NCBI GenBank assembly: GCA_903844775.1
Contig: CAIMUZ010000110.1
Coordinates: 1-49,274, forward strand
DNA from: an uncultured Burkholderiales bacterium
Lineage (GTDB): Bacteria > Pseudomonadota > Gammaproteobacteria > Burkholderiales > Burkholderiaceae_C
Direction: 5' to 3'
DNA length: 49,274 nucleotides
Numbering within the stretch: position 1 is the first letter of the stretch; every line of letters begins with the position of its first letter. Positions 15,879 to 49,274 of the stretch are shown piece after piece. Position numbers and translations under genes: made by a program. The notes under the pieces were generated by a model that was given only the letters and a program-made list of their open reading frames with translations, had not been told where the DNA came from and did no database searches.

Positions 15879-16442
15879 TCACAGCTTCATGCTGCTCAAT
15901 AGTTGGCCTGTAAATTCATCAAACAGAGGCATGGGCCCTTGAGGGTCCTTTGCTAACTCATCAATGCGGCGCAATGATACGGCGTCCTTCCAGTAGGGCG
16001 ATAACTGAAAAGCCAGAACTTCGACATCCGACATAGGGCCGCCTTGAAGGGCTAAGCTTTCAACGGAGTCTTTCGATAGCTTCGAAAAGTAGTCTGCCTC
16101 GACAGTACAAAGGTAACGCTTGGCGGCCACATGAAGCCTGATGGGCTCTGTCACATCAGAACCAAAGTAGCGTTCAAGCCAATTTGCCCCAATTTTTTCG
16201 TGCTGATCGTCAATGCCCAGCGCAGCAGGATGATCGCCCAATTGATGCACCATGTGGCCTATGTCGTGAAGCAATGCGGCCACAACCACTGAATCCGATA
16301 AGCCTGCGGCGCGAGCATGGTAAGCAGACTGAACTGCATGTGCGAGCTGGTTGATGAGTGTTAAACCATAGAGCCCATTGGCGCGGCCTGCATAAATCGA
16401 TGATAAATCGGCTAATGCTAATTCATGCTTGTTTGGAATCAT
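15879..16442 (-). CDS. Phosphonate-operon HD-domain oxygenase-like protein (PhnZ family)
   Basis: A 187-residue HD-domain protein with H35, the LLHDIGHMVH motif (H59, D60) and further His residues (HEKIG and RLHVAAKRYL). The YLCTVEADYFSKLS and LQGGPMS stretches mark the family found in phosphonate degradation operons. PhnZ of this family is a di-iron oxygenase that cleaves 2-amino-1-hydroxyethylphosphonate to glycine and phosphate, using the product of the dioxygenase PhnY*. No PhnY* gene is present here, and a Thr (T28) appears where characterised PhnZ has a substrate-loop Glu, as far as I can align it by eye. Its substrate is therefore open. It is the last gene of the phn operon, 23 bp after phnW. 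Confidence 0.75.
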   Translation of the reverse strand: MIPNKHELALADLSSIYAGRANGLYGLTLINQLAHAVQSAYHARAAGLSDSVVVAALLHDIGHMVHQLGDHPAALGIDDQHEKIGANWLERYFGSDVTEPIRLHVAAKRYLCTVEADYFSKLSKDSVESLALQGGPMSDVEVLAFQLSPYWKDAVSLRRIDELAKDPQGPMPLFDEFTGQLLSSMKL

Positions 16443-16465
16443 TTGGGTTTTGATTGAACTTGAAT

Positions 16466-17566
16466 TTACGAGATGACACCAAGATCACGAAGCGTTCGTG
16501 AAGTGGCCTCTGTCGCTTTGAAAATGTCTGTGGCATCGATGGCCCCTATACAACCTACACGAAAAGTTTCAATTTGCGTGAGTTTGCCCGGATAAAGAAT
16601 AAAGCCCTGTGCTTTAACACCTTCATATAACTTAGAGAATTCAAAATTGGGATGATCAGGCGAATGGAAAGTCACGATGATGGGGGCTTGAACGTCGTCC
16701 GCTAAATAGGTACGCAAGCCAATGGTTCTCATGCCGGCCACCAAGGCCGCACAATTTTTTTGATACCTAGCATTGCGCGCAATGACGCCACCTTCTTCAT
16801 GGAACTGATCCAGTGCTGATCGCAAAGCAGCAACCACATGCGTTGGCGGCGTGTAGCGCCATTGACCTGTTTTCTGCATGTAGATCCATTGGTCATGCAA
16901 ATCCAATGCAAGAGAGTGTGAATTGCTTTTAGAATTTTGGAGTACGTCTTGACGCACAATCACAAAACCCATACCAGGGACACCCTCAAGGCACTTTCCA
17001 GAGGCTGCAATGAGTGCGTCAATGGGCGTTGTGGTGAGGTCAATCGGAATGGCGGCAAAGGAGCTCATGGCGTCTACGATCAAATGTCTTTTTTGCGCAG
17101 CCACCACAAGGGCAATGTCATGGAGTGGGTTCAAAATACCCGCACTGGTTTCACAGTGCACCATGGCAACGTGCGTAATGCCTGGGTCTGCAATGAGGGC
17201 GGCCTGAATTCGCTCAGGGCTTGCAGGTTCATCTTCAGCGTGCTCTAAAACCACCACATCTTTTTTCTGATAGCCCAAGATGCGCACAATTCGCTGACAA
17301 TAGGCGCCATTGCTGGGCACTAAAACTTTGCCAGTTTGGGGCACCAGGCTTCCCAGTGCAGCTTCTACGGCAAAAGTGCCGCTGCCTTGCATGGGGACGC
17401 ACACATGGGTTGCTTGGCCCTTGACAATGTCTACGATGTCGTTGCAAACCGATGCAGTTAATTGATTGAAAGAGGCGTCCCAAGAACCCCAATCTGACAA
17501 CATAGCTTCTTTGGTTCGAGAGGTGGTTGTTAAAGGTCCGGGCGTTAAAAGAATGGCTTTTGACAT
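16466..17566 (-). CDS. phnW: PhnW, 2-aminoethylphosphonate:pyruvate aminotransferase
   Basis: A 366-residue fold-type I PLP enzyme. The Schiff-base lysine is K191 in [15 protein letters not shown], preceded by the PLP-ring Asp in [10 protein letters not shown] (D165). It transfers the amino group of 2-aminoethylphosphonate to pyruvate, giving phosphonoacetaldehyde and alanine. The N-terminus [11 protein letters not shown] is typical, and the ATG has a strong ribosome site (GAGGAA, 6 bp upstream). It starts 9 bp after the alcohol dehydrogenase. With phnY and phnA in the same locus, its product is expected to be oxidised rather than cleaved directly by PhnX, which is absent. Confidence 0.93.
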
Positions 17567-17575
17567 ACAGTTTCC

Positions 17576-18673
17576 TCAGGGAACAATGGCAGCACGCAAG
17601 ACGCGTTGTGATGCCGCATCTGACATGGCTTGTGTTACTTCATCGAGTGAATATTGCGCATCCACCAAGTCGGCAAAAGGATAATGCACTTTATTTTTCA
17701 CCACAAAATCCAATGCTTCAATCAGATGACGCGGGTGATAGTTATGGACACCGCGAAGAGTGATCATTTTTTTGACCAATCGGTTGGCATCGATGGTGAC
17801 GTTAGCGCCTGGACTGACCAAACCAGCAATCACGTAAGTGCCGCCAACTCGAACCATCTCAATTCCAAAAGGGAGCGCGTCAGCAACACCGCATACCTCG
17901 ATGACAGCATCAGGTCCCTCGGGTTTGCAGTGTGACTCGATATCCTTCAATAACTTTTGGGGGTCACTGCTGGCGTCTAAGGCAATGTCAACTCCAAATC
18001 GTTTTGATTGCGCGCAACGTTTTGGATTGACATCAAGCCCGATCACGGTACGAGCACCGCGAGACTTGGCCAACGCAGCGCCATACAGCCCCAATAATCC
18101 CAATCCCTGAATGACCACCGTGCTGCCAAGGCGAATATTTGAGGCTTCTGTGACCGCTACCATGGTGGCGACACCACAATTGACAGGGGTCGCTTCTGCG
18201 TCTGTGATGGTGTCTGGCAAACGCAGGATCCAAGATTTAGGGAGCACATAGCAATATTCAGCAAACCCACCATGATGATGGGGGGCGGTAGTGACCGCCA
18301 TGTGGCCATACTTTTCAACACCGTGAGACTTTTGCGGTAAATCCAGAACTTCTGAAAAGTAGTTTGCCCCTGGTATGAAGAACTCACTCCATGTAATTCG
18401 GTCATTGACAGACAGTGAATCACCGCGCATATCGTGCGTTAAGCCTTCGCCAAGTGCCACGATGCGCCCCACAATTTCGTGGCCAAGAAGGCCCGGACAT
18501 GGACTGGGACGATGGCCATGATAGGAGTGAATGTCTGATCTGCAGATGGTCGACATGCTGACTTTGACCAAAGCTTCGTTCGCGTTTGGTGCGCGAATGG
18601 GATAAGACTGCACTTGGAAAGGCGCATTGGGCGCAGTGTAAACAGCAACTCGTCCAGAGGCTGGAATGGTCAT
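17576..18673 (-). CDS. Phosphonate-associated zinc-dependent alcohol dehydrogenase
   Basis: A 365-residue medium-chain dehydrogenase. The N-terminal catalytic domain has the Zn-site Cys in MSTICRSDIHSYHGHRP and LGHEIVGRI with the Zn-site His and Glu. The nucleotide-binding fold begins STVVIQGLGLLGLYGAALAKS with the acidic GLD after it, typical of NAD specificity. This subfamily occurs repeatedly in phosphonate catabolic operons, but its substrate is unproven; hydroxyethylphosphonate or a hydroxylated aminophosphonate are candidates. It overlaps phnA by four bases (ATGA). The usual four-Cys structural zinc lobe is not seen; that stretch instead carries the short ANYFSEVLDLPQKS. Confidence 0.8.
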   Translation of the reverse strand: MTIPASGRVAVYTAPNAPFQVQSYPIRAPNANEALVKVSMSTICRSDIHSYHGHRPSPCPGLLGHEIVGRIVALGEGLTHDMRGDSLSVNDRITWSEFFIPGANYFSEVLDLPQKSHGVEKYGHMAVTTAPHHHGGFAEYCYVLPKSWILRLPDTITDAEATPVNCGVATMVAVTEASNIRLGSTVVIQGLGLLGLYGAALAKSRGARTVIGLDVNPKRCAQSKRFGVDIALDASSDPQKLLKDIESHCKPEGPDAVIEVCGVADALPFGIEMVRVGGTYVIAGLVSPGANVTIDANRLVKKMITLRGVHNYHPRHLIEALDFVVKNKVHYPFADLVDAQYSLDEVTQAMSDAASQRVLRAAIVP

Positions 18674-19926
18674 GCGTTGGTCGCTACGCCATTGATAGCG
18701 AAGTCGAATATAAAGTGGCTCTTGAGGGGGCCATGCGCCGCTCGATCAGCATATTTCTGATTTAAAGGTCGATTCAAAATGAACGGGACGCGCGCTTCTG
18801 CCACCGCACCATGGCTGCGCAATCTGGCATCGTTTAGATTCGACAAGTCATGATCAGCAACGCTAGCACCAATGACGGTTCCAGCATCGCCAATGACGAC
18901 AACATCACCTTCACGGTCTGCTGGCAATTCAAATTGATGACAAGCTTCATCTTTGGTCAGCGCCAGTTCAACACCTTCAATCCCTTTGACTTTGGCAATG
19001 ACTTCTTGCACAGTGAGTTGCGTGTCACGCATCCAGATGCGCACAAAACCACCCAAGGCACCATGGTGACGCACAAAGGCATCCGTGATAGGGCAAATAA
19101 CTTGGGTTGTTCCTTGACCAAACGCATGATCAAGCATGTCTTGAAGGAAGATGACTTTGGGCTTGCCGTCTGGCAAAGACTTGTCATTCATGCCGTGATC
19201 TGCCGTCAAAGCTACGACGGCACCTGATTCAGAAAGGCGACCAAATGCATCATCGAGCCGCTTGTAAAACGTGTTTGAAACTGCATCACCAGGTGCGTAC
19301 TTGTGCTGAATGTAGTCGGTTAAAGACAAAAATAACAACTCAGGTTGATCACGCTCGAGCAATTTAATTCCAGCCTCAAGCACAAACAAAGACAGGTCCA
19401 TGGAGTACATGTCGGGTTGGGGCATGCCCACCAATTCGAGCACGTTGGCAATGCCATTTTCTTCAAGAGTGCATTGACTTGCAAATTCTGAAGAGAAGCT
19501 CACGTTGCCACGTGAGAGGTCTAGACCCTTTCCAAGTTGTTTACGAAGCTTGTCTTTGGCGGTAATGGAAACCACTTTGGCGCCCGCATTGGCAAATGTG
19601 GCCAAGATGGTTGGGCTTCTGAGGAGTTCAGGACCTGTCATGACAACGGCCTCACCGTTTTCATTCAGATAGTAGTTACCAGAAATGCCATGCACAGAGG
19701 GGGGTGCACCGGTAATTAGCGACATGTTGTTGGGGCAGGTAAAGCTAGGTACGGTGCCATTGGCAATGCCCGAAAAGCCCTCACGCATGAATTTCTCAAT
19801 GTTGGGAAGGATGCCGTCTTTAAGGCCTTGCTCAATGTATGCAGGGTCACCGCCATCGATACAGACAACAACGACGGGTTGATGGGGCCAGCTGTAACTG
19901 ACGCCATTGAGTTCAAGTTTGTTCAT
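18670..19926 (-). CDS. phnA: PhnA, phosphonoacetate hydrolase
   Basis: A 418-residue alkaline-phosphatase-superfamily enzyme. It cleaves phosphonoacetate to acetate and phosphate using two zinc ions. The first metal ligand is D24 (VVVVCIDGGDP) and the nucleophile T63 lies in VPSFTCPNN. Further ligands are in LSLTDYIQHKYAPG and LTADHGMNDKS, with a late His in DARLRSHGAVAE. The length matches the known enzyme. It lies 16 bp after phnE in the same operon and completes the PhnW-PhnY-PhnA route. It should not be confused with the unrelated E. coli yjdM, once also called phnA. Confidence 0.93.
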   Translation of the reverse strand: MNKLELNGVSYSWPHQPVVVVCIDGGDPAYIEQGLKDGILPNIEKFMREGFSGIANGTVPSFTCPNNMSLITGAPPSVHGISGNYYLNENGEAVVMTGPELLRSPTILATFANAGAKVVSITAKDKLRKQLGKGLDLSRGNVSFSSEFASQCTLEENGIANVLELVGMPQPDMYSMDLSLFVLEAGIKLLERDQPELLFLSLTDYIQHKYAPGDAVSNTFYKRLDDAFGRLSESGAVVALTADHGMNDKSLPDGKPKVIFLQDMLDHAFGQGTTQVICPITDAFVRHHGALGGFVRIWMRDTQLTVQEVIAKVKGIEGVELALTKDEACHQFELPADREGDVVVIGDAGTVIGASVADHDLSNLNDARLRSHGAVAEARVPFILNRPLNQKYADRAAHGPLKSHFIFDFAINGVATNA

Positions 19927-19942: not shown

Positions 19943-20734
19943 TCAAATGCTCCAGCGTCGAATTCGCGCTGAGATGACGTCAACCAAGGAAACAAAAACT
20001 ATGATGATAAACAGTATTGCGGCAGTTTCTGCGTAATCAAAGCCGCGAATTGATTCGTGAAGCACAACGCCAATACCACCGGCGCCGACCATGCCCACAA
20101 CAGAAGCCGACCGAACGTTGGATTCGAATCGGTAAAGAGAATAGGAGATCCAAAGGGGGAGAACTTGCGGGATGACACCGTAGAGTATTTCTTCTAATGG
20201 ATTTGCGCCAGTTGCCCTGACACCTTCGACGGGCCGTGGGTCAATGGCTTCAACGGCTTCAGCAAAAAGTTTGGCCAAGACTCCAGTGGTGTGAATCCAA
20301 AGCGCCATCACGCCCGCAAATGGACCTAAACCAACGGCCACAATGAACAGCATGGCAAACACCATTTCGTTGATGGCTCGAAAGGCATCCATGAGACGGC
20401 GCACAGGTTGATAAACCCAAGCGGGCACAATGTTTTCAGAGCACAACAAGCCCAACGGAACAGCGCAAAAAATTGCCAACACAGTGCCCCAGATGGCGAT
20501 GTGAACTGTGATAACCATCTCACTCAGGTAAATACGCCAATCGTGAAAATTAGGGGGAAAAAATTCTTTGCTGAACACAGCCATGTTGGCTGAGTCAGCA
20601 ATGAGTGCCATTGGGCGTATTTCTGCGCCTTGCCAGGACCAGATGAGCATCATCAATACAACACCCCAAGCCAGCTGCGCCAGCAAGCTGGTGGGTGGCG
20701 GTGAAAGCGGAATGTCTTTGATGGTGGGTTTCAT
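19943..20734 (-). CDS. phnE: PhnE, phosphonate ABC transporter permease
   Basis: A 263-residue inner-membrane permease with about five or six membrane spans. The EAA loop contacting the ATPase is [20 protein letters not shown], followed by the conserved [22 protein letters not shown]. It forms the channel through which phosphonate bound by PhnD is moved with energy from PhnC. The gene follows phnD by 30 bp. No clear Shine-Dalgarno sequence precedes the ATG. The single permease gene fits the PhnCDE type with a PhnE homodimer. Confidence 0.92.
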
Positions 20735-20764: not shown

Positions 20765-21730
20765 TTATTTGGCTTTTGCCAAAGCTGCAAGCTTGGCATC
20801 GATGTCAGCAATCTTGGTTTGCTTTTCGGCGGCGGACATATTGGCATCGGACTCAAACTTCATGCGATCTTTGAACAATTCGAGTTGACGGATGGGAATC
20901 AATTGGGCGTCAGTGGAAGCCTTGAAGCCAGCCAAGCGATACATGTTCTTTAAAATTTCTTTTTCACGGTCATTCTTGCCATAACCGACGACGAAATCTT
21001 GCACTTTCTTTTTCACATCAGAAGGCAAGTCTTTACGCCAGACCAAAGGATCACGAGGAATGAGGGGTGAAGTCCAGAGAATACGAATTTGATCCATTTT
21101 CTCGGGTGATTTTTCCTTCATTTTCTCGGTCATTTCGCTGTTGCTGGTGGCGACATCGACTTGTTTGTTCAAAACAGCCAAGAAATTGCCTTCATGATTG
21201 GAGGAACGCATGACTCTGAAATGCGTTTTGGGGTCCAATTTATTGAGTGTGAAAACATAATAAGTGGGGACCAGTGTGCCTGATGTAGAAGAAGGATCGC
21301 CAATTCCAAATGAGTATTGTTTTCCATTCTGTAAAACTTGATCGAGCGTTTTAACGGCTGAATCTTTGTGTGTGATCAAGTAGGAGTAGTAGCCTGGCGT
21401 ACCGTCTAGGTCAACAAACTGAGCGAAAACTTCGCCTTGCGAGCGATCGACTGCATCAATCGCTGCTTTGTTGCCGTACCAGGCAAGTTGTACTTTGTTA
21501 AAACGCTGGGCTTCAATAACGCCTGCGTAGTCTGTGGCGTAAAAGCCATTGATTTTAATGCCGGTGGCTTTGGTCATGTCTTCCAAAAACGGCTCCCACA
21601 TTTGTTTCATGGCGCCCGCTTTTTCGGTTGCAATGATGCCAAAGTTGAGTTCCTTGATGTCTGAGGCGTTGGCAATGGTTGCCGCACTGATGGCCAAGGC
21701 CGAGAGGAGGGTCTTCATGGTTTTGAGCAT
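20765..21730 (-). CDS. phnD: PhnD, phosphonate-binding periplasmic protein
   Basis: A 321-residue solute-binding protein with an N-terminal signal peptide (MLKTMKTLLSALAISAATIA, likely cleavage after ANA). The mature part begins with LNFGIIATE and contains GFYATDYAGVIEAQRF and FGIGDPSSTSGTLVPTYYVF, the phosphonate-binding loops of the PhnD family. It delivers 2-aminoethylphosphonate or related compounds to PhnE. It follows phnC by 44 bp. The start has AGGA seven or eight bases upstream. Confidence 0.93.
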   Translation of the reverse strand: MLKTMKTLLSALAISAATIANASDIKELNFGIIATEKAGAMKQMWEPFLEDMTKATGIKINGFYATDYAGVIEAQRFNKVQLAWYGNKAAIDAVDRSQGEVFAQFVDLDGTPGYYSYLITHKDSAVKTLDQVLQNGKQYSFGIGDPSSTSGTLVPTYYVFTLNKLDPKTHFRVMRSSNHEGNFLAVLNKQVDVATSNSEMTEKMKEKSPEKMDQIRILWTSPLIPRDPLVWRKDLPSDVKKKVQDFVVGYGKNDREKEILKNMYRLAGFKASTDAQLIPIRQLELFKDRMKFESDANMSAAEKQTKIADIDAKLAALAKAK

Positions 21731-21774: not shown

Positions 21775-22614
21775 TTAAAAGTTTGCAGTGGGATGTAAAT
21801 GAGGTGAGTTTTTTCCGGTTTGAAAACCGAATGACGCATCGGGTGGCGTTGCAAAGAGCTCAGAGGCACTGCTGCCATATAGTTCGGCCAGTAAATCGGG
21901 GGTAAGTGCTGCCGAGGGGCCGTCGTAAACCACGCGACCGGCATTCAGTGCAATGGTTCGCGGGCAATATCGAACTGCAAACTCCACCTGGTGAAGTGAT
22001 ACCAGAACGGTGCATTTGTTTTCGCGATTCATTTGTTGCAGAAGGTCCATGACCTTTCTAGAAGACTCTGGGTCTAAGGAAGCAATAGGTTCGTCGGCCA
22101 AAATGACTCGGGCCTTTTGAACCAAACACCTTGCCAACGCAGCCCTTTGCTGCTGGCCGCCAGACAGGGTGGCAGCACGTTGCCACGCAGTTTGCTCTAT
22201 GCCAACTGATGAAAGTGCTTCCAGGGCTTTTTGACGCTGCTCAACGTTAAATCGCATGAACAGACTGCGCCACCAAGGTGTTTCGTAAAGCTGCCCAATC
22301 AACACATTTGTGATGACTGGAAGTCTGTTGACCAAATTGAATTGCTGAAAGACAAATCCAACACGATTTCGGACTTGTTTATAACCAGGCATGAGTTTGC
22401 CGTTGGATTGAACTGTTTGACCCAATACATCAATTTCGCCGCTATTGGATGTCACAAAGCCTGGCAAGTGTCTGAGAAGCGTTGATTTTCCGGAGCCTGA
22501 TGCACCCAGCAACGCAACCATTTCACCTTCTTCAATTTGAATGGACACCTTGTCCAATGCTTGACAGGTGGCAAACGACTTACTTAACTCTCGAGTGACG
22601 ACCGCATAGGGCAT
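21775..22614 (-). CDS. phnC: PhnC, phosphonate ABC transporter ATPase
   Basis: An ABC ATPase with Walker [10 protein letters not shown] (37-45 from the chosen start), a Q-loop in [11 protein letters not shown], the signature [15 protein letters not shown] and Walker [16 protein letters not shown]. It powers PhnDE uptake. The frame is open to a TTG at 22671, but that codon lies inside the GntR-type dyad at 22666. The ATG at 22614, giving [14 protein letters not shown] and 279 residues, matches the family start and is preferred, though its ribosome site is poor. It is the first gene of the seven-gene phn operon. Confidence 0.9.
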
Positions 22615-22665
22615 GGAAATTTCGCTGTCATTGAATTGCAATGAAGCGAGCTTAGAATTTGTATG

Positions 22666-22681
22666 TGTCAAGTTGTTGACA
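22666..22681. promoter_or_regulatory. Operator-like dyad for the phosphonate GntR regulator
   Basis: TGTCAAGTTGTTGACA has six-base inverted arms (TGTCAA/TTGACA) around a 4-bp centre. It lies in the divergent phnC-gntR region and contains a perfect -35 hexamer TTGACA (22676-22681) for the plus strand, with TTTATT 18 bp on. GntR-family repressors bind such dyads over promoters. A related half-site TGACAACTT occurs at 22725, next to the GntR start. Confidence 0.5.
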
Positions 22682-22734
22682 ATCTACGATTCAGTGCAAT
22701 TTATTTTGATTGATTAATATTCAATGACAACTTC

Positions 22735-23421
22735 ATGACGTTCTCCAGAAACTTGGGTGTGCTTAAACAAAACTCTTTGCCCTCATTGGTTCAAGATGAG
22801 CTTGAACTCATGTTTCGAAAAGGTAAGTTCACACCTGGGCATCCCTTGCGAGAGGCAACACTGGCCACCCAGTTGGGTGTTTCGCGTGGACCTATTCGTG
22901 AAGCATTTCGGTCATTGGAAGAAAAGGGTTTGGTCACGGTTGAAAAAAACCGAGGTGTATTTGTTCGCGTCATTACTTCACAAGAAGCAGACGATATTTT
23001 TGAAGTACGTAATGCGCTTGAAAAAATCATTGTTTCGCGCATTGCAAAAGCGCCAGATTGCCTTCATAACTCTGGCCTGCCACAGCTTCTAAGCAGAGCC
23101 ACTAAGTTGGCTGCCAAAGCAGACTTTTCAGGTTGTCATGCATTGAATATTCAGTTTCACGAAAGATTGGCCGAGCTGGCTGGCAATCACACACTTCTTA
23201 ATACCTATCGCCGATTGGTCAATGAACTGTCCTTGTTTCGGCAGCAAGCGCATGCCAGTCAAGCGGATGCCTCCAGCTTAAAGCAGTCAGTTGAAGACCA
23301 TAAAGCTTTACTTGAGGCCCTTACTATGGGGGACCAACCAAGAGCCCTGAAAGTACTCAAATTGCATGTGGGTGAAAGTCGAAAACGCTTGCAAAATATT
23401 CTTTCTAAACCTAAGAACTAA
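22735..23421 (+). CDS. GntR-family (FCD type) phosphonate utilisation regulator
   Basis: A 228-residue regulator. The N-terminal winged helix (about 10-78) has the GntR pattern REATLATQLGVSRGPIREAFRSLEEKGLV. The C-terminal all-helical FCD ligand-binding domain contains FEVRNALE, FHERLAELAGN and the final DHKALLEALTMGD with metal-ligand His residues. Its place, divergent from phnC and 5 bp before phnY, identifies it as the local regulator, probably autoregulated. The inducer may be a phosphonate or phosphonoacetaldehyde, but the sequence cannot show this. Confidence 0.88.
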   Translation: MTFSRNLGVLKQNSLPSLVQDELELMFRKGKFTPGHPLREATLATQLGVSRGPIREAFRSLEEKGLVTVEKNRGVFVRVITSQEADDIFEVRNALEKIIVSRIAKAPDCLHNSGLPQLLSRATKLAAKADFSGCHALNIQFHERLAELAGNHTLLNTYRRLVNELSLFRQQAHASQADASSLKQSVEDHKALLEALTMGDQPRALKVLKLHVGESRKRLQNILSKPKN

Positions 23422-36661: not shown

Positions 36662-36679
36662 ATTTTTTTCTTAACCTAT

Positions 36680-40533: not shown

Positions 40534-40578
40534 GAGGTTCTCCTTTGTTGGGGAGATTCTGGAGATGAAAGATTTCTT

Positions 40579-40611
40579 TGATGTGACTGATTCATGTATT
40601 TTCAGTGACAA
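40579..40611 (-). promoter_or_regulatory. Pho-box-like triple repeat before ugd
   Basis: On the minus strand three 11-bp units in register begin TTGTCACT (40611), AATACATG (40600) and CAGTCACA (40589). The outer two resemble PhoB half-sites and the middle one only in part. The block ends 45 bp before the ugd ATG, a sensible distance for a PhoB-dependent promoter. Confidence 0.45.
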
Positions 40612-40721
40612 AAAATCAAATAGCTGAATGGGTGGGTTGTTAATCAATGCGCTTATGTTCCCCTTGATGTCCGATTTGCAATCAGCAATTGATATGGCCC
40701 AATTTGAGCTGAGTCATCTGT

Positions 40722-40755
40722 ATGTCATAAAATTGTCATGGATTCTGTCAAAAAT
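40722..40755 (+). promoter_or_regulatory. Pho-box candidate before ppk
   Basis: Three near-repeats with cores TGTCAT (40723), TGTCAT (40734) and TGTCAA (40746). The first two are exactly 11 bp apart, the classic Pho-box register, with the AT-rich AAAA between them. They lie 60-94 bp upstream of the ppk start. This is among the best Pho-box matches in the window. Confidence 0.65.
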
Positions 40756-40815: not shown

Positions 40816-42906
40816 GTGACAACTCGATCTTTTACAAATTCTGCTTTGGTGGCGCCTGAAGTCGAACTGCTAGACCGCGACGGCAGTCTTTTGGCTTTCA
40901 ATGAGAGAGTTTTGGATTGGGCTAAGCGTCCTGAAGTGCCTTTACTGGAAAGACTGCGTTATCTCTGTATCGTTTCTTCCAATCTAGACGAGTTCTTTGA
41001 AGTTCGTGCTGATTTGCACATGAGTGCCTACCGCAACCAAGACTCAAAGGGTGCATACAGTACCAAAACCTTTGAAGCCATTTACGAAAAAGCCAGAAAT
41101 TTAGTGGCTGAGCAATACAGCCTTTACAACGAAGTCTTGCTCCCGAGTTTGCGCAAAGAAAATATTCAAATTCTTTCCCATGGCGAACGAAATGCCATCC
41201 AGAAAAAATGGGTGCAAGACTATTTCCGAAGAGAAGTAAAACCCTTATTGGTTCCTGTTGGACTGGATCCTGCCCATCCGTTTCCGCAAGTCGCAAACAA
41301 GTCGCTTAACTTTATCGTTCAGCTGTCTGGCAAAGATGCGTTTGGACGAACCAACGACATCGCCATCGTGAAAGTCCCCAGGGTTTTACCAAGGGTGATT
41401 CCACTGCCATCCAAGGTTGCTGGAAGCGGCAAAGCCTTTGTTCTGTTGTCAAGCGTCATTCGCTCCCACCTGAGCGATTTATTTCCAGGACGCGAAGTGG
41501 GCCAGTTCTCTCAATTCCGAGTGACGAGAAATTCTGACTTGTCGGTAGACGAGGAAGAGGTTGAAAATTTACGCACTGCGTTGCGAAAAGGCTTGCAGCA
41601 TCGTCAATATGGTGAGGCCCTTCGGTTGGAAGTTTCCGACAGTTGTTCCGAACACTTGTCGACATTTCTACTCAATCAATTTAGCTTGCCCAGTACAGCG
41701 CTTTTCCGTGCTGCGGGGCCCGTTAATTTGGTCCGGCTTAGCCAATTGATTGATTTGGTCGCAGACCCAGCCTTGCTATTTCCAACCTACCATTCTAGTT
41801 TTCCGAAGCAGTTGCAACAAGGTAGTTCAATTTTTGCGCGGATGCAAAAGGGTGATGTTTTGATCCATCAACCTTTCGAAAGCTTCGATGGGGTTTTGTC
41901 TTTTCTGAAAGAAGCAGTTGAAGACCCGAACGTATTAGCGATCAAGCAAACCATCTACAGAACGGGCAGTGACCCAGCCATGATGAACCTGCTGCGTGAA
42001 GCGGTGCGTCGCGGCAAAGAGGTGACTGCCGTGGTTGAGTTGAAAGCCCGGTTTGATGAGGAAGCCAATATCAATTGGGCCGAGCAACTTGAGTCAGTGG
42101 GTGCGCAGGTTGTATATGGTGTTGTCGGTTTGAAAACCCACGCCAAAATGTTGTTGGTAACCCGGCGTGAAGGCCGCCTATTGAAGCGTTATGGCCATCT
42201 CTCTACGGGTAATTACAACCCAAGGACCGCCAAGCTTTACACCGACCTCAGTTACTTAACATGCGATGCCAAAATTACCGCAGACATGGACACCTTGTTT
42301 GTGCATTTGGCCAGTCCCAGCAGGTTGGGGCGCATGAATAAATTATTGACGGCACCATTTCAACTGCAAATGAACATGGTCCAAAAAATTGAGTCTGTGG
42401 GTTCGGCTGCCAAAAAGGGGTTGCCCGCCAGAATTGTGGCAAAAATGAATTCTCTGACCGATCCCGTGTTGATTCATGCACTGATCAAGGCGGGACAAGA
42501 GGGCGCGCAAATTGATCTCATCGTTCGCGGTGCTTGCATGTTGCCAGCAGGGATACCCGGTAAGACAGAGAACATTCGAGTGAGGTCCATCATTGGACGT
42601 TTCCTGGAGCATTCTCGAGTCTTCTTCTTTGAGGCTGGTGACGTGCAAGATTTTTATTTGTCCAGCGCTGATTGGATGTCACGGAATATGACGCGTCGAG
42701 TGGAATTGGCTTGGCCAGTGACAGATCTTGCACTGCGACAGAGAATCGTGGACGAATGTTTATTGGCCTATTTGCATGACACGCGCAACGCTTGGACGCT
42801 TGAGCTTGATGGCAAATACAGGCGTGTCGAAAAAAGAGGCCATAAAACGCAAAGTGCACAAGCACTGTTGATGCAAAAATATTCAACAGGCAGTGCCAAA
42901 CGCTAA
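40816..42906 (+). CDS. ppk1: Polyphosphate kinase 1
   Basis: A 696-residue enzyme that polymerises the gamma-phosphate of ATP into polyphosphate, reversibly. The N-terminal domain contains FNERVLDWAKRPEVPLLERLRYLCIVSSNLDEFF, and the PLD-like catalytic domains hold the autophosphorylated H442 in VGLKTHAKMLL and the second-site STGNYNPRTAKLYTD. The length is normal. Translation appears to begin at GTG 40816, as no ATG is in frame nearby; the ribosome site is poor. It is followed by sixA after 17 bp and probably sits under the Pho-like box at 40722. Confidence 0.95.
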   Translation: MTTRSFTNSALVAPEVELLDRDGSLLAFNERVLDWAKRPEVPLLERLRYLCIVSSNLDEFFEVRADLHMSAYRNQDSKGAYSTKTFEAIYEKARNLVAEQYSLYNEVLLPSLRKENIQILSHGERNAIQKKWVQDYFRREVKPLLVPVGLDPAHPFPQVANKSLNFIVQLSGKDAFGRTNDIAIVKVPRVLPRVIPLPSKVAGSGKAFVLLSSVIRSHLSDLFPGREVGQFSQFRVTRNSDLSVDEEEVENLRTALRKGLQHRQYGEALRLEVSDSCSEHLSTFLLNQFSLPSTALFRAAGPVNLVRLSQLIDLVADPALLFPTYHSSFPKQLQQGSSIFARMQKGDVLIHQPFESFDGVLSFLKEAVEDPNVLAIKQTIYRTGSDPAMMNLLREAVRRGKEVTAVVELKARFDEEANINWAEQLESVGAQVVYGVVGLKTHAKMLLVTRREGRLLKRYGHLSTGNYNPRTAKLYTDLSYLTCDAKITADMDTLFVHLASPSRLGRMNKLLTAPFQLQMNMVQKIESVGSAAKKGLPARIVAKMNSLTDPVLIHALIKAGQEGAQIDLIVRGACMLPAGIPGKTENIRVRSIIGRFLEHSRVFFFEAGDVQDFYLSSADWMSRNMTRRVELAWPVTDLALRQRIVDECLLAYLHDTRNAWTLELDGKYRRVEKRGHKTQSAQALLMQKYSTGSAKR

Positions 42907-42923: not shown

Positions 42924-43385
42924 ATGGACCTGATTTTTTGGCGCCACGCAGAAGCATTTGATTCCCTGGAAGGGCAGGATGATTTGTCTCGTACTTTGAC
43001 GCCTAAGGGCGAAAAACAAGCCCTGAGGATGGGGCAGTGGCTAGACCGTCAGTTGCCTGAAGGCGTGCGGGTGATGTCAAGCCCAGCAGTGCGTTGCGAG
43101 CAAACGGTCAAGACACTTGGTCGCAAGGTTAAATACAAATCTGAGCTGCAACCGCAAGGCAGTTTGGACGATTTGCTTGTCACCGTGGGATGGCCTGATT
43201 CCAAAATGTCAGTGCTGATCGTGGGCCATCAGCCTGTTCTTGGGCAGGCCATTGCCTATTTGCTGGGTTTGCCAAATGGCGAGTGTTCAGTCAGAAAAGG
43301 GGCCGTTTGGTGGCTGAGAAGTCGGGTGAGAGAAGACTTGACACAAACTGTGGTGGTCAGTGTTCAAACCCCCGAGCTTCTTTAA
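42924..43385 (+). CDS. sixA: SixA-type phosphohistidine phosphatase
   Basis: A 153-residue histidine-phosphatase-superfamily protein. The phosphate pocket is WRHAEAF (catalytic H8), with the second His in IVGHQPVLG. SixA in E. coli removes phosphate from a histidine of NPr in the nitrogen phosphotransferase system. Here it is cotranscribed with ppk, an arrangement common in Betaproteobacteria and Actinobacteria, so a link to polyphosphate or phosphate signalling is possible. Its last base touches the stop of the convergent histone-like gene. Confidence 0.85.
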   Translation: MDLIFWRHAEAFDSLEGQDDLSRTLTPKGEKQALRMGQWLDRQLPEGVRVMSSPAVRCEQTVKTLGRKVKYKSELQPQGSLDDLLVTVGWPDSKMSVLIVGHQPVLGQAIAYLLGLPNGECSVRKGAVWWLRSRVREDLTQTVVVSVQTPELL

Positions 43386-43879: not shown

Positions 43880-45397
43880 TTATATCGTTTTTCCATTAAT
43901 TTCAATTAACTCCAATTTCCATGTGGTCTTTTGCCAAGCAATGCATTCTTCCCGCAGCAAATGGGCAGATTGTGGCCATTGTTGCAACCATGTTTTTTTG
44001 CATTGGATCGTGAACTCAGTCGTGCTTCCTTCTACGGCTTTGAGGCTAATGCCTTTGAGGTCAGGATCTCTTCTGGCGTGACAAAGAATAGCGGCCAAGC
44101 GAAGACTCAATAATTGGATCACAAAGTCTGAATTCCGCAATTCAACTTCGAGTTTTTTCAATTTACCCCTGTGTCCAAGAATCAATTGACTGAGCCTGTG
44201 CAGCTCGGACATCGAGAATCCAGGTAAGTCTGCATTGTCTAAAATGTAGGCGCCATGTTTGTGGAAATCACTGTGAGATATGCGGGTGCCAATTTCAAGC
44301 AGATGTGCGGCCCAGCTGAGTTTCTTTTCCAAACGGGCTGCATATTGCGGCTCAAAACTTGATTTATCAACAATGCTTTTGAACAAGCTGACTGCGGTTT
44401 TTTGGACGCGCTCCGCTTGTAAGGCATCGACCGCGAACCTGTTGCCCAATGCGGTGACCATGGTACTGCGCAAGTCGGTGTTTTCTTCGCGTTGTAAAAG
44501 GTCATATAAAACACCATGCCGCAATGCACCCTCGGCAGCATGCATGGAATTAATTTGCATGAGGTCGAAGAGGGCGCACAACACAGCAAGACCTCCGCCA
44601 ATCACTGGTTTGCGATCTTCTTTGAAGCCTTCTAATCTGAGGGCTTCAACGCGCCCTGCTTTGATTAATTTCTCTTTCAGCCAGTCCAAGCCCTCGCGCG
44701 TAATGACTTCTGATGGCCATCCTGCAGCCTGTAAAACGTCAGCAACTGCCCCAATCGTGCCTGAGGAACCGTAGGCAACGTCCCAGCAATTTTTAGGGTA
44801 CAGCGCGATGGCCTCATCGAGAACTGCCTTGGCTGCAACCTCAGCCCATTCGAAGGCAGAGGGCGTGAAAAGCCCATCGGCAAAATACTTCATGGACCAC
44901 TTGACGCTGCCCACGCGGTAGGACTCCATGGTTTGTGGTTTAAAGCCTTGCCCTAAGATCAATTCGGTTGATCGACCACCGATGTCAATCACCAACCGTT
45001 TTTCTTCAGATTGCGGTAATAAATTGGCAACCCCAGAGTAAATCAGTCGAGCCTCTTCTCTGCCAGAAATGACATCGATCGGAAAACCGAATAATTTTTC
45101 AGCGGGCGTTAAGAAGGCCTCTCGGTTCTTAGCCTCTCTGAGAGTTTGTGTGGCAACAGCCCTAACGTGGCTGGGTCCAAAACCCGATAATCGCTCTGAA
45201 AATCGAGCTAAACATTCCCATCCGCGTTCCATAGCGTCCTGAGAAAGCATCCGATCAGCGTCTAGGCCGTTGCCTTGACGCACAGTTTCTTTCAGATATT
45301 CCACTCGCCTGATGTGACCGTGCTCCAACACCCCAATTTCCAAGCGAAAGCTATTTGAGCCCAAATCGATGGCTGCTAATAATTGTCCGTTTTGCAT
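43880..45397 (-). CDS. ppx: Exopolyphosphatase (Ppx/GppA family)
   Basis: A 505-residue ASKHA-fold phosphatase. The two phosphate loops are AAIDLGSNSFRLE at the N-terminus and LVIDIGGRSTEL at about 139-150, and the C-terminal HD-like region contains SWAAHLLEIGTRISHSDFHKHGAYI. It removes terminal phosphates from polyphosphate, or acts on pppGpp; the neighbours favour Ppx. It diverges from pstS across 279 bp with Pho-like elements and is followed by the histone-like gene. The ATG at 45397 starts MQNGQLLAAIDLGSNS, as expected. Confidence 0.92.
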   Translation of the reverse strand: MQNGQLLAAIDLGSNSFRLEIGVLEHGHIRRVEYLKETVRQGNGLDADRMLSQDAMERGWECLARFSERLSGFGPSHVRAVATQTLREAKNREAFLTPAEKLFGFPIDVISGREEARLIYSGVANLLPQSEEKRLVIDIGGRSTELILGQGFKPQTMESYRVGSVKWSMKYFADGLFTPSAFEWAEVAAKAVLDEAIALYPKNCWDVAYGSSGTIGAVADVLQAAGWPSEVITREGLDWLKEKLIKAGRVEALRLEGFKEDRKPVIGGGLAVLCALFDLMQINSMHAAEGALRHGVLYDLLQREENTDLRSTMVTALGNRFAVDALQAERVQKTAVSLFKSIVDKSSFEPQYAARLEKKLSWAAHLLEIGTRISHSDFHKHGAYILDNADLPGFSMSELHRLSQLILGHRGKLKKLEVELRNSDFVIQLLSLRLAAILCHARRDPDLKGISLKAVEGSTTEFTIQCKKTWLQQWPQSAHLLREECIAWQKTTWKLELIEINGKTI

Positions 45398-45551: not shown

Positions 45552-45573
45552 ATGACATGAATTTGTCACAATT
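45552..45573 (+). promoter_or_regulatory. Pho box of pstS
   Basis: Two 11-bp units in perfect register begin ATGACATG and TTGTCACA; both match the PhoB half-site well. A -10-like TAGATT follows at 45580, about the distance seen in PhoB-dependent promoters. This leaves a leader of about 85 bp before the pstS start, with AAGGAG just before the ATG at 45677. Confidence 0.7.
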
Positions 45574-45676
45574 GGAGGATAGATTGGGCGGGTGCTGCAA
45601 AAGTGACCTGAACATCGTTTGGCAAGCCTGTTGCACATACAAACACCAAATTTCAACTCTGAATCAAGGAGTCAAA

Positions 45677-46699
45677 ATGCTAAAGATCAAATCATGGGTT
45701 GCTGCACTGGGCTTAAGCGCCATTGCTGCAACTTCAATGGCGGCCGACCTGACGGGCGCTGGCGCTTCTTTCCCTTTCCCTATCTATGCAAAGTGGGCTG
45801 AAGCCTACAAAGCCAAGACGGGCCAATCTTTGAACTATCAGTCCATCGGATCATCTGGCGGCATCAAGCAAATCAAGGCGAAAACCGTGGACTTTGGCGC
45901 CACAGACGCCCCCATGTCTGCTGAAGAGCTCGACAAAGAAGGTTTGGTCCAATTCCCAGCCATCATCGGTGGCGTGGTTGCAGTGGTTAACATTGACGGC
46001 ATCAAGCCTGGTCAAGTTAGGTTGACCGGTGAGCTGTTGGCCGATGTGTTTTCTGGCGTGATTCCCAAGTGGAACGACAAGCGCATTACAGACATGAATC
46101 CTGGTGTGGCACTGCCTGACGCAGCCATTACCGTGGTACACCGTGCTGATGGATCGGGTACGACAGCTGTGTTCACAGATTATTTGACCAAAGTCAGTGC
46201 CAACTGGAAATCAACAGTGGGTACGGGTGCTGCCGTGAAGTGGCCTGCCGCTTCTTCAGTGGGTGGCAAGGGTAACGAAGGCGTTGCAGCCAACGTCGGT
46301 CGCATCAAAAACTCAGTGGGTTATGTTGAATACGCTTACGCCAAGAAAAACAACATGTCTCACCTGAATCTTCGCAACTTGGCAGGTCAATTTGTGGCGC
46401 CCGATGACGAGACATTTGCTGCGGCTTCCGCCAGCACCGATTGGGCAAAGATTCCAGGCATGAGCATTTATTTGACCAACGCACCTGGTGCTAAGTCATG
46501 GCCCATCACTGGCGCGTCTTTCATCTTGATGTACAAGCAGCCGGTCAACAAAGCCAACTCTGCTGAAGTCTTGAAGTTCTTTGACTTCGCCTTCAAAGAT
46601 GGCAAGAAAATGGCAGCCGATTTGGAATATGTGCCTATGCCTGACGCAACCACAGACTTTATTCGCAAGAGCGTTTGGAACAACGTGAATGTGAAGTAA
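45677..46699 (+). CDS. pstS: PstS, phosphate-binding periplasmic protein
   Basis: A 340-residue protein with a signal peptide (MLKIKSWVAALGLSAIAATS, cleavage likely after MAA or SMA). The mature protein starts with the phosphate-loop LTGAGASFPFPIYAKW and includes GSSGGIKQIKAKTVDFGATDAPM and HRADGSGTTAVFTDYL, the residues that bind phosphate. The frame opens at 45557, but that start lies inside the Pho box; the ATG at 45677 with AAGGAG and a perfect signal peptide is the true start. It is the first gene of pstS-pstC-pstA-pstB. Confidence 0.96.
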   Translation: MLKIKSWVAALGLSAIAATSMAADLTGAGASFPFPIYAKWAEAYKAKTGQSLNYQSIGSSGGIKQIKAKTVDFGATDAPMSAEELDKEGLVQFPAIIGGVVAVVNIDGIKPGQVRLTGELLADVFSGVIPKWNDKRITDMNPGVALPDAAITVVHRADGSGTTAVFTDYLTKVSANWKSTVGTGAAVKWPAASSVGGKGNEGVAANVGRIKNSVGYVEYAYAKKNNMSHLNLRNLAGQFVAPDDETFAAASASTDWAKIPGMSIYLTNAPGAKSWPITGASFILMYKQPVNKANSAEVLKFFDFAFKDGKKMAADLEYVPMPDATTDFIRKSVWNNVNVK

Positions 46700-46763: not shown

Positions 46764-47744
46764 ATGAACAATGCAGACAGTTTGATGACCCCCCACAGGC
46801 AGAGTGTTCTGCGCTGGCAGCGGTGGCAAGATTTCTTATTTGAAAAAACAACGATGGTCTTTGCGCTGTCCACTTTGGTGGCCTTGACGGGAATCATCGT
46901 CTCGTTGTTCATCAGTTCATGGCCGGTGCTCACCACCTTTGGCTTCGAATTTTTTTACACAGTTGAGTGGGACATCATCAATTCAAAATTTGGTGGTTTG
47001 ATTGCTATTTTCGGAACCGTTGTCACTGCTTCTATTGCTATTTTGATTGCACTGCCGCTTAGTTTTGGCATTGCTGTATTTTTAACCGAGACATGCCCAA
47101 TGCCGCTGCGCCGTCCTCTGGGAACGGCCATTGAATTGTTGGCCGCCGTGCCGTCCATCATTTACGGCATGTTTGGATTGTTTATTTTTGCCCCCTTGTT
47201 TGCTGAGTTTGTGCAGCCCGCATTGGCTGGCTCGCTGGGTCAAATCCCTGGCATCAGTATTTTATTTACCGGCGCTTTCAATGGCGTGGGTATTTTGGCA
47301 GCCGGCCTTATTTTGGCCATGATGATTCTGCCTTTCATTGCCTCCGTCATGCGCGATGTGTTTGAAATCGTACCTCCTATTTTGAAAGAATCGGCCTATG
47401 GCATTGGTTGCACCACTTGGGAAGTGGTGACCAAGATTGTTTTGCCCTACACCAAAACGGGTGTGGTGGGCGGTGTCATGCTGGGCCTAGGTCGCGCCTT
47501 GGGTGAAACCATGGCAGTTACTTTTGTCATTGGCAATGCGCACAAATTGTCGCCCTCTCTTTTCTCGCCTGGCAACTCGATTGCTTCCACATTGGCCAAC
47601 GAATTTGGTGAAGCTGAGCCCGGCTTGCACTACGCTGCACTGTTCTCTTTGGGCTTGGCCTTGTTTTTAATTACCTTGATCGTTTTGTCCTTGGCCAAAT
47701 GGATGCTGATTCGGGCTGAAGCCAAGAAAGGTATGAAAACATGA
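46764..47744 (+). CDS. pstC: PstC, phosphate ABC transporter permease
   Basis: A 326-residue inner-membrane permease with about six membrane spans after a cytoplasmic N-terminus of about 25 residues. Typical stretches are [38 protein letters not shown] and the EAA-type loop [22 protein letters not shown], followed by [18 protein letters not shown]. With PstA it forms the phosphate channel. It follows the terminator after pstS and overlaps pstA by four bases. Confidence 0.95.
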
Positions 47745-48607
47745 GCACTAGAAGCAACATGGATCCTTCCATCTACGCAAAGCGCAAGCGCGCCAATTTA
47801 ATTGGCTTGATTTTGTCAATGTCGGCCATGGTCATTGGTTTGGTATTTTTACTCTGGATCTTGGCCATCTTGATGTACAAAGGCTTTTCCGCTTTGAGCA
47901 TTGACTTGTTGACTCAAGTCTCACCCGCACCAGGAACACCCGGTGGTGGTTTGTCAAATGCGATTGTGGGCAGTTTGATGATCGTTTTGTCATGCACCTT
48001 GTTGAGTACACCCATTGGCGTCTTGGCGGGCGTGTACTTGTCTGAATACGGCGACAGGAGCAAAAGTGCAGCAGTCACACGGTTTGTGAACGACATCATG
48101 CTGTCTGCCCCGTCCATCGTGATTGGTTTGTTTGTTTATGCTTTGGTGGTGGTGCCCTCTAAGCACTTCTCAGGTTGGGCCGGCACCATTGCTTTGTCAT
48201 TGATTGCCATTCCGGTGGTTGTTCGCACCACCGAGAACATGTTGAAACTGGTGCCAGTCAGCTTGCGTGAAGCAGCCTTTGCACTGGGTGCGCCTAAGTG
48301 GAAAGTCTCTACAACTGTGGTATTAAAAGCGGCCAAGAGCGGCGTGATGACGGGCCTTTTGTTGGCCCTTGCTCGGGTGAGTGGTGAAACAGCGCCTTTG
48401 CTGTTCACGGCTTTGAACAATCAGTTCTTCTCTTGGGACATGAACAAACCGATGGCCAATCTGCCCGTCATGATTTTCCAATTCGCCATGAGTCCCTATG
48501 AAAACTGGGTCAACCTGGCATGGGGTGGGGCCTTGCTCATTACCCTCACTGTATTGGCACTCAACATCATTGCACGTGTTGTGTTCCGTGAAAAAGTCTC
48601 AGTCTAA
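47741..48607 (+). CDS. pstA: PstA, phosphate ABC transporter permease
   Basis: A 288-residue permease with about six membrane spans. It shows the expected [31 protein letters not shown] and the ATPase-contact loop [21 protein letters not shown], then [19 protein letters not shown]. The start overlaps the pstC stop (ATGA). It pairs with PstC in the PstSCAB transporter, which also takes part in phosphate signalling to PhoR in many bacteria. Confidence 0.95.
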
Positions 48608-48628
48608 TCTTTGAACAGATCTACCAAA

Positions 48629-49274
48629 ATGAATACATTACCTGAAACCAAAGAGATCATCTTGGAAGTTCGCAATCTGAACTTCTACTATGGTTCTTTC
48701 CAAGGTCTTAAAAATATTAACTTGGACATCCAAAAGAATACCGTCACGGCATTCATTGGACCTTCTGGCTGCGGTAAGTCAACGCTCCTCAGAACGCTCA
48801 ATCGCATGTATGACCTGTACCCTGGCCAGCGTGCAGAGGGCGAAATTAACTTTGATGGTGAGAACATTCTCAACCCCAAGCAAGATTTGAACTTGTTGCG
48901 TTCGCGTGTGGGCATGGTTTTCCAAAAGCCCACACCGTTTCCCATGTCGATATATGACAACATTGCCTTTGGTGTGCAGTTGTACGAAAACCTGTCGCGC
49001 AGCGACATGGACGATCGGGTGGAGTGGGCCTTGCAAAAAGCAGCTATCTGGGGCGAAGTGAAAGACAAGCTGGGTCAAAGCGGGTTGTCCTTGTCGGGTG
49101 GTCAGCAGCAGCGCTTGTGCATTGCGCGCGGCATTGCTGTCAAACCCGCCATCTTGTTATTGGACGAGCCAACTTCTGCGCTTGACCCCATTTCTACGGG
49201 CAAAGTAGAAGAACTGGTGCACACCCTCAAGAGTGAATACACTGTGGTCATTGTGACTCACAACATGCAGCAAG
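48629..49274 (+). CDS. pstB: PstB, phosphate ABC transporter ATPase (partial, runs off right edge)
   Basis: From the ATG at 48629 the frame stays open to the window end, giving about 215 residues. Walker A is GPSGCGKST, the signature is [16 protein letters not shown], Walker B is [13 protein letters not shown] and the H-loop is [27 protein letters not shown] is specific for PstB. It provides the energy for PstSCA. It lies 21 bp after pstA; the missing C-terminus and a likely phoU lie outside the window. Confidence 0.95.

Follow-up and report, generated by a model that had tools for sequence, protein, structure and literature searches.

A probable PhoB-controlled phosphorus island in Limnohabitans that contains a putative lipid-modifying gene set

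In the parts of the reports that bear on it, accounts of phosphorus-stress lipid remodelling chiefly concern marine bacteria, Pseudomonas and methanotrophs, the PlcP-Agt systems being those of marine heterotrophs, Pseudomonas aeruginosa and Methylosinus (PMC4796936, PMC8528852, PMC9239053). The text of section 13 of PMC4796936 names six contexts in which plcP occurs, and the gene set psd*-amt3-h35941 is not among them. We found no description of that set in the literature searched, which covered few subscription papers. Limnohabitans is a common lake bacterium. Here we present an analysis of a 49,274-nucleotide stretch of DNA (the window), a single contig of a Limnohabitans MAG, in which gene content and promoter motifs point to a likely PhoB-controlled phosphorus island of the genus, combining P uptake, lipid remodelling and a psd*-amt3-h35941 lipid-modifying unit. 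Lipid remodelling would here be part of a genus-wide phosphorus island, and within the island a conserved, Pho-linked set of enzyme genes may make a membrane lipid so far undescribed.

Gene content of the window

The phn genes, olsB-like/plcP pair, psd, GT4 gene, lplT, ugd, ppk-sixA, ppx and pst that the original prediction named are all in place (Table 1). Its gene list was sound in what it named and omitted amt3 and an Mpo1-like gene (h35941), the core of a conserved module, and its description of the P region as continuous was overstated, SET, BON, TRAP and hypothetical genes breaking it up.

At least one NCBIfam model was matched at or above its cut-off by PhnA, PhnC, PhnD, PhnE, PhnW, PhnY, the PS decarboxylase, LplT, Ppk, PstS, PstC and PstA. 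The specific model scored below its cut-off for Phn-HD, the phn alcohol dehydrogenase, the PhnR-type GntR regulator, EamA, SixA and OlsB, which are therefore called at family level. The OlsB-like protein falls under both OlsB equivalog cut-offs (149.6 against 350 and 142.7 against 320 bits); the predicted pair is present, its first member scoring below every OlsB cut-off. PlcP reaches no NCBIfam cut-off and is placed by the calcineurin-like phosphoesterase superfamily; of 29 other genomes searched, 20 have a best match 62-92% identical to the predicted ortholog, and among 300 genomes of the order, its own included, 148 hold matches at E<=1e-60.

Table 1. Features of the window and candidate regulatory sites (scores in bits; paired values are score/cut-off unless stated otherwise)
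Feature	Position	Strand	Remark
phosphonate-associated HD oxygenase-like protein	15879..16442	-	TIGR03276 192.5/214.6, below cut-off
phnW, 2-aminoethylphosphonate-pyruvate transaminase	16466..17566	-	571.5 vs cut-off 296
phosphonate-catabolism-associated alcohol dehydrogenase	17576..18673	-	TIGR03366 283.4/328.1, below cut-off
phnA, phosphonoacetate hydrolase	18670..19926	-	549.4 vs cut-off 407.55
phnE, phosphonate ABC permease	19943..20734	-	302.8 vs cut-off 216.7
phnD, phosphonate-binding protein	20765..21730	-	model above cut-off
phnC, phosphonate ABC ATPase	21775..22671	-	TIGR02315 281.6 vs cut-off 266.1
candidate Pho box, phnC/gntR region	22724..22741	-	p 0.015; overlaps annotated gntR start
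phnR-type GntR regulator	22735..23421	+	220.9/271.5, below cut-off
phnY, phosphonoacetaldehyde dehydrogenase	23427..24857	+	849.4 vs cut-off 635.65
EamA-type phosphonate-associated membrane protein	24857..25699	+	164.5/288.15, below cut-off
SET gene	25716-26285		interrupts P genes
candidate Pho box upstream of olsB-plcP	26358..26375	+	p 0.022
olsB-like N-acyltransferase (Acetyltransf_5)	26403..27290	+	OlsB 149.6/350
plcP-like phospholipase C (calcineurin-like phosphoesterase)	27287..28114	+	superfamily match and orthologs
BON gene	28133-28747		interrupts P genes; directly after plcP
TRAP transporter	28794-32584		interrupts P genes
psd*, PS-decarboxylase paralog	32675..33595	-	TIGR00163 169.4 vs cut-off 111.75
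candidate Pho box between psd* and amt3	33547..33564	+	p 0.0025; overlaps psd* start codon, points to amt3
amt3, class-III aminotransferase with N-terminal hydrophobic helix	33613..35268	+	nearest solved relative: mycosubtilin synthase AMT domain
hypothetical genes	35302-35784 and 43386-43844		interrupt P genes
h35941, Mpo1-like His-rich membrane protein	35941..36591	-	PF06127 20.7 vs gathering score 24
candidate Pho-box-like sites between h35941 and gt4	36614..36697	36614 -, 36639 +, 36680 +	p 0.01
gt4, GT4 glycosyltransferase, lipid-type by nearest model	36720..37913	+	GlcN-PG synthase 149.3/480; glucosyl-DAG synthase 99.9/400
lplT, lysophospholipid transporter	37859..39109	-	443 vs cut-off 297
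ugd, UDP-glucose 6-dehydrogenase family	39112..40647	-	subfamily TIGR03026 425.8 vs 189.8; TuaD 466/700
candidate Pho box upstream of ppk	40722..40739	+	p 0.0025
ppk1, polyphosphate kinase	40816..42906	+	model above cut-off
sixA-like phosphohistidine phosphatase	42924..43385	+	64.2/74.5, below cut-off
ppx/gppA exopolyphosphatase	43880..45397	-	family match
candidate Pho box, ppx/pstS region	45552..45569	+	p 0.022; overlaps first ATG of pstS ORF
pstS	45557..46699	+	model above cut-off
pstC	46764..47744	+	model above cut-off
pstA	47741..48607	+	model above cut-off
pstB, cut by contig end	48629..49274	+	81-95% to pstB of same-genus relatives holding it

Candidate Pho boxes in the window and its relatives

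Promoter regions were scored with a generic PhoB weight matrix rather than one learned from Limnohabitans sites, with p values from 400 dinucleotide shuffles. All six P-gene promoter regions (phnC/gntR, SET/olsB, psd/amt3, h35941/gt4, ugd/ppk and ppx/pstS) give p<=0.025, and six other regions of the window (g15198/phnHD, tatT/psd, hemA, hma/yghU, bchI/dxs and yghU/nmo) give p>0.36, which, for a matrix of this kind, bears out the earlier claim of Pho-like repeats before several of these genes. A two-heptamer scan that required 11 or more matches out of 14 returned 12 sites where 5.15 were expected, half of them (6/12) in the promoter regions.

Among the relatives compared, the box recurs upstream of olsB in 13/16 regions and upstream of ppk in 13/13; it is weaker at pstS (5/11) and absent upstream of lplT (0/4), and two control regions show a single match each (tatT 1/4, yghU 1/4). 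The sixA upstream stretch included in this count lies largely inside ppk. At psd*/amt3 the region reaches p<=0.05 in 62 of 76 loci, and at h35941/gt4 in 61 of 66; where the module is arranged as one operon, a box stands upstream of amt3 in 2/7. Since the psd*-side site covers a start codon, a control was run on start codons, in which 32 of 44 psd starts and 9 of 712 starts of other genes reached 10 bits, the 44 being mutually related and drawn from the 58 psd proteins of the cluster. The psd-internal sequence also ranks 2/150 in a comparison with permuted matrices; composition therefore accounts for part of the box signal on the psd side. The true start of psd* is probably the inner ATG near 33553, and that of pstS may lie downstream of the first ATG, which its candidate box overlaps.

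Most of the tested P-gene promoters thus appear to carry conserved PhoB-like boxes, most control regions being without them. Box placement suggests that PhoB activates amt3, h35941 and gt4, and the psd*-amt3-h35941 set looks phosphate-starvation-induced.

The psd*-amt3-h35941 set and its glycosyltransferase

Psd* scores as a member of its family (TIGR00163) and contains HGST, the GST of which we take to be the pyruvoyl-site motif. A second, canonical Psd is encoded on contig C145 of the same genome; the idea that the window gene is the housekeeping copy was rejected on this ground, and the earlier call of psd stands for the family and gives way to a paralog for the gene. Among the matches listed for Amt3, the nearest by both sequence and fold is the MycA AMT domain, followed by GSAM and by beta- or D-phenylglycine transaminases. 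The mycosubtilin AMT domain aminates substrates of the beta-keto acyl type, and by analogy with this 27% identical structure Amt3 would do likewise. The third protein, h35941, has a weak predicted structure (mean pLDDT 66.9), and its profile finds a single PDB match up to E 1, at E 0.31; a relative in locus L188 reaches 24.8 bits with PF06127, against the gathering score of 24. For the gt4 of the window no PDB sequence matched at 1e-20, and the 518-aa stretch ahead of the GT4 in locus L189 yielded none up to E 0.1, nor any Pfam match up to E 0.01.

The module is kept across Burkholderiales, where 34 of 300 sampled genomes have it, and is present in other proteobacterial classes; its carriers include Hydrogenophaga and Variovorax. 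It is linked to plcP (21 of 23 same-contig pairs lie within 15 kb, in 10 families), and it adjoins plcP, pst or phn in other families too. A P gene was seen in the DNA examined around 30 of 80 module loci, and around 18 of the 56 outside the 24 loci taken as Limnohabitans by titles and amt3 identity rather than taxonomy, so the module can occur apart from such genes; the 80-locus counts retain short loci, which lowers them. We read the module as a putative Pho-regulated lipid-remodelling unit, and we infer that Psd*-amt3-h35941 is a lipid-modifying unit without earlier description.

In the mechanism that we propose, falling phosphate would lead PhoB to switch the island on, and Pst and Phn would import P. 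PlcP would remove phospholipid head groups to leave diacylglycerol, which GT4, with UDP-glucuronate from Ugd, would convert to a P-free glycolipid, while the OlsB-like enzyme would begin an aminoacyl lipid. A membrane-tethered Amt3 would aminate a beta-keto acyl-type substrate in the manner of the MycA domain; its lipid, or a neighbouring one, would also be the target of the Psd paralog and the Mpo1-like protein. Under PhoB, psd* might be activated, unaffected or blocked, its start codon being inside the box. A bolder version, which we hold tentatively and rate below even, is that several proteobacterial classes share a PhoB-switched route of lipid remodelling so far undescribed, formed by Psd*-amt3-h35941 and an exchangeable GT4. 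Starting from a beta-keto acyl precursor, this route would yield a P-free membrane lipid that bears an amine, with glycosylation optional, and PhoB on the psd* start codon would lower decarboxylation simultaneously.

The same four genes might instead serve a Pho-controlled envelope response, decorating a glycan of the envelope or lipid A rather than the bulk of the membrane lipids. Polysaccharide synthesis likewise employs enzymes of the GT4 and Ugd families, the second-best model for gt4 is BshA, which is not a lipid enzyme, and ugd and lplT are found in only 21 and 42 of the 80 loci. However, lipid glycosyltransferases make up three of the four best-scoring gt4 models (none reaching its cut-off), the glycosyltransferase adjoining the module in families f88 and f78 is of the plcP-linked agtL type, and the module itself is plcP-linked, which together make envelope decoration unlikely, although glycan genes may be shared among the unlabelled clusters of neighbours. 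We give still less credit to head-group recycling, by which Psd* would make PE, PlcP would cut it to diacylglycerol and phosphoethanolamine, and Amt3, as a phospho-lyase, would free the phosphate, so that P is recovered and no new lipid is made. This has the merit of giving psd*, plcP and amt3 a common pathway; amt3 is both linked to plcP and of the class-III fold, as is ETNPPL, a phospho-lyase. The transaminases nearest to Amt3 speak against it, as does the N-terminal hydrophobic helix, which would be odd for a soluble substrate; that ETNPPL is absent among the matches listed carries no weight against a phospho-lyase.

Clustering in the genus and comparison with described systems

P-gene clustering exceeds chance. 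Across 90 Limnohabitans genomes every same-contig pair of plcP, ppk and pstC lies within 50 kb, and the same limit holds for phnD and plcP in 18 of 19 such cases, with the caveats that such distances skew short in fragmented MAGs and that the loci are related, so the counts are not independent. Amt3 is present in 59 of the 90 genomes and phnD in 38, of which 4 (31-35% identical) were dropped before distances were counted, as were, as fragments, 3 of 82 pstC genomes and a second ppk piece of G368. In 14 genomes a single contig carries all of phnD, plcP, amt3, ppk and pstC, which in 13 of them lie within 25-50 kb, in varying order. The synteny comparison that the original prediction had proposed as a check thus came out in its favour, the arms recurring as a phosphorus island genus-wide. 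Its placing of phn beside the other arms is right for the genus as a matter of nearness, and the exact placement is local: in G001 a 97% identical PhnD is 109 kb from plcP. Contig NZ_NERY01000001 of Limnohabitans sp. MMS-10A-178, where PhnD is at that distance from plcP, carries the lipid, polyP and pst genes.

It is improbable that these are ordinary neighbours, with function linking only ppk-sixA-ppx-pst and olsB-plcP and the rest caught in a slow-evolving region. The interrupting SET, BON and TRAP genes and the local placement of the phn operon would fit such an account, but one gene set recurs in varying orders in 13 genomes, the module adjoins plcP, pst and phn in other families, and the Pho boxes are conserved. 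That the contig is an assembly chimaera, as a MAG of 235 contigs and 78% completeness and a GC fall from 0.60 to 0.45 along the window might suggest, is very improbable, since G001 has the left and right parts on one 1.8-Mb contig and G387 shows the phnD-plcP spacing again.

Of the clustered P programme originally predicted, then, the recurrent island and the PhoB-like boxes at most tested promoters stand, and proximity to photosynthesis genes is lineage-specific. In G001 some 17-22 kb separate bch genes from plcP, no bch gene was matched in 80-kb regions of G012 and G006, and the bchI/dxs region is boxless; we rejected this proximity as part of the programme.

The phosphorus island resembles several known systems in part. 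Its PhnW-PhnY-PhnA 2-aminoethylphosphonate pathway is ordinary, with all three enzymes in one cluster and, like PhnCDE, above cut-off, and its extra HD and ADH genes are of known phosphonate-associated families. With ornithine-lipid synthesis (OlsBA) it shares an OlsB-like GNAT gene overlapping plcP, and it differs in the sub-threshold OlsB score. With PlcP-Agt remodelling, as far as the relevant parts of the reports go (PMC4796936, PMC8528852, PMC9239053), it has in common plcP, Pho boxes and, in 12 of 14 other Limnohabitans regions, an agtL-type GT4 adjoining plcP. In the window, by contrast, the Agt glycosyltransferase is not beside plcP, the BON gene coming next, and a search of the MAG (78% complete) for agtL matched nothing except gt4 itself; ugd stands beside gt4, as glucuronosyl-DAG would require. 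The MycA AMT domain, the best sequence and fold match of Amt3, is 27% identical over the aligned part, and Amt3 differs from it in being a stand-alone protein with an N-terminal hydrophobic helix.

Phosphorus genes of the window and of Limnohabitans

Contig C110, which is the entire window, belongs to a Limnohabitans MAG of 2.52 Mb in 235 contigs that is 78% complete. The genes that the original prediction had placed in one continuous phosphorus-economy region were all found by profile or sequence matches, some at family level only, while the region itself is less continuous than was stated, because SET, BON and TRAP genes and two hypothetical genes intervene. The left 10 kb carries bchO, bchD, bchI, dxs and hemA. 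The TRAP transporter of the island recurs in the relatives G001 and G012, and in G003 and G009 as far as those contigs extend.

Synteny was compared across 90 Limnohabitans genomes (own MAG included) with per-gene E-value thresholds, by which plcP was present in 71, phnD in 38, ppk in 83, amt3 (a class-III aminotransferase) in 59 and pstC in 82. Distances were counted solely where both genes occupy one contig, a measure in which fragmented MAGs favour short values: plcP and ppk lie within 50 kb in 59/59 cases (53 within 10 kb), plcP and pstC in 47/47, ppk and pstC in 57/57, amt3 and pstC in 31/31, plcP and amt3 in 26/27, and plcP and phnD in 18/19. All five genes share a single contig in 14 of the 90 genomes (the apparently near-identical G014 and G319 each counted), spanning 25-50 kb in 13 of them and 146 kb in G001, and their order varies. 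Despite little fragmentation, G323 (1 contig), G320 (2) and G332 (3) hold all five within 27-41 kb. The clustering side of the original prediction is thus borne out by the synteny comparison it proposed, as the P genes recur close together across the genus, in varying order.

Coordinates of features in the window and in module loci
Record	Feature	Coordinates	Remark
Window	GC gradient	1-49274	~0.60 at 4-6 kb (bch genes), ~0.45 in right half
Window	TRAP transporter with T-component (DctQM, DctP, TAtT)	28794-32584	within the island
Window	pstC	46764-47744	
L189	stretch ahead of GT4	2344-3898	~520 residues without Pfam match; likewise in L187
L174	Methyltransf_11 gene	7111-7800	beside h35941; another class
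L180	Methyltransf_11 gene	7930-8571	beside h35941; another class

Local arrangement around plcP

When the plcP regions of 20 relatives, 14 of them congeneric, were mapped with the window's proteins, two forms stood out. The compact form, olsB-plcP-agtL-ppk-sixA-ppx, occurs in G006, G013 and G014, followed by pst in the first two; agtL is a GT4 glycosyltransferase about 35% identical to the window's gt4. In the long form (G001 and G012), bon, TRAP, psd* (a PS-decarboxylase paralog), amt3, h35941 (an Mpo1-like membrane protein), gt4, lplT and ugd stand between plcP and ppk, with a further 6-10 kb ahead of ppk and agtL retained. Of the 14 same-genus regions, 12 have an agtL-type GT4 adjoining plcP, which is absent there in G008, G015 and the window; G015 and G008 have no GT4 between plcP and ppk, as the window has none after plcP. 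A search of the 78% complete MAG with agtL matched gt4 alone.

At the window's phn position, G001, G012 and G006 carry no phn operon; the PhnD of G001 is 97% identical to the window's and lies 109 kb away, and in G387 phnD and plcP are 6.5 kb apart, as they are in the window. In G007 and G016, olsB-plcP is immediately preceded by an HD gene and by phnC and phnD (G007 also phnE), these phn genes at 54-70% identity. Just upstream of olsB, G004, G007, G014, G016 and G017 encode an HD protein that shares 37-45% identity with that of the window's phn genes. PstC identity among close relatives (pstC of G001, G005, G347, G365 and G368) is bimodal, 93-98% versus 67-69%, and pst is reversed in G001, so pst looks replaced in one sublineage.

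Distribution of the psd*-amt3-h35941 module

Named genomes were scanned with amt3, which gave at least 575 relatives; the loci of the best 80 hold psd* (77), h35941 (72), gt4 (65), lplT (42), ugd (21) and plcP (16). Record titles include Limnohabitans, Curvibacter, Hydrogenophaga, Hylemonella, Variovorax, Paucibacter, Polynucleobacter, Malikia, Zoogloea, Sulfuricella and Methylocapsa; three MAG records titled Akkermansia (L101), Bordetella parapertussis (L110) and Chitinophaga (L154) look mislabelled, because their module loci resemble those of Burkholderiales. A P gene lies within the examined neighbourhood of 30 of the 80 loci, of 18 of the 56 outside the 24 taken as Limnohabitans, and of 13 of the 36 non-Limnohabitans loci with at least 20 kb examined.

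Among 300 genomes of the order, amt3 occurs in 34, plcP in 148 and both in 31 (odds ratio 13, p 7e-8, kinship ignored); 21 of 23 same-contig pairs, from 10 families, lie within 15 kb, and the remaining two are separated by 406 kb and 1.06 Mb. Across 398 genomes of the phylum, amt3 was found in 25, 20 of them outside the class. In forty further neighbourhoods psd* and h35941 are each present in 39, h35941 being missing from one contig of 4.4 kb, and 32 have a gt4-type or agtL-type GT4. Module genes are co-directional in families f79 and f53. At the annotated loci L189 and L187, operons of other families, GT4 forms the end of a ~900-residue protein, and no PDB match was found for the L189 stretch ahead of it. 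A methyltransferase gene, which we take to be PmtA-like, adjoins h35941 in two loci, one from f88 and the other from f85.

Predicted Pho boxes and known systems

The Pho-like repeats of the original prediction reappear as predicted sites: with a weight matrix built from a PhoB consensus, which may not be the host's own, 6/6 P-gene promoter regions of the window reach p<=0.025, and the other regions tested give 0/6, all p>0.36. In the window and relatives at p<=0.05, upstream boxes were found for ppk (13/13), olsB (13/16), ppx (9/12), pstS (5/11), phnC (3/3), gntR (1/1) and gt4 (3/3), with single matches for tatT (1/4, none ahead of the window's tatT) and yghU (1/4). SET (3/4) and ugd (2/4) share their regions with olsB and ppk, respectively. 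No box was found upstream of sixA (0/12), dctP (0/5), bon, lplT or g15198 (0/4 each), hma (0/3), or bchI, dxs, hemA or nmo (0/2 each). The count for psd* is 0/5 because its annotated start lies too far upstream, the box sitting at an inner start codon.

Both divergent module promoters of the 80 loci carry conserved boxes at p<=0.05, psd*/amt3 in 62/76 and h35941/gt4 in 61/66, against 8/80 inside amt3, 4/78 inside psd and 1/68 in the convergent gap. The real matrix beats 150/150 column-permuted matrices at both promoters, and ranks 58 inside amt3, 79 in the convergent gap and 2 inside psd. The second locus set gives 22/33 for psd*/amt3, 28/39 upstream of h35941 and 2/40 inside amt3, with 2/7 upstream of amt3 in operon-form loci; by family, psd*/amt3 boxes number 5/5 in f88 at p 0.01, 2/3 in f85 and 0/2 in f78. 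The psd*/amt3 box spans the psd* start codon, and that it is a mere by-product of start codons can be rejected, because 32/44 psd start codons match versus 9/712 of other genes.

To the observed gene identities, linkage and predicted boxes we add a proposed reading, in which PhoB would control the island, PlcP-derived diacylglycerol would be turned into glycolipid, and amt3 may have an amino-lipid role. Three papers describe glycolipid formation by PlcP-Agt from PlcP-derived diacylglycerol (PMC4796936, PMC8528852, PMC9239053). The psd*-amt3-h35941 module is the part of the island for which a targeted literature search found no description, and the island as a whole is a variant, new in form, of known P-stress gene sets.
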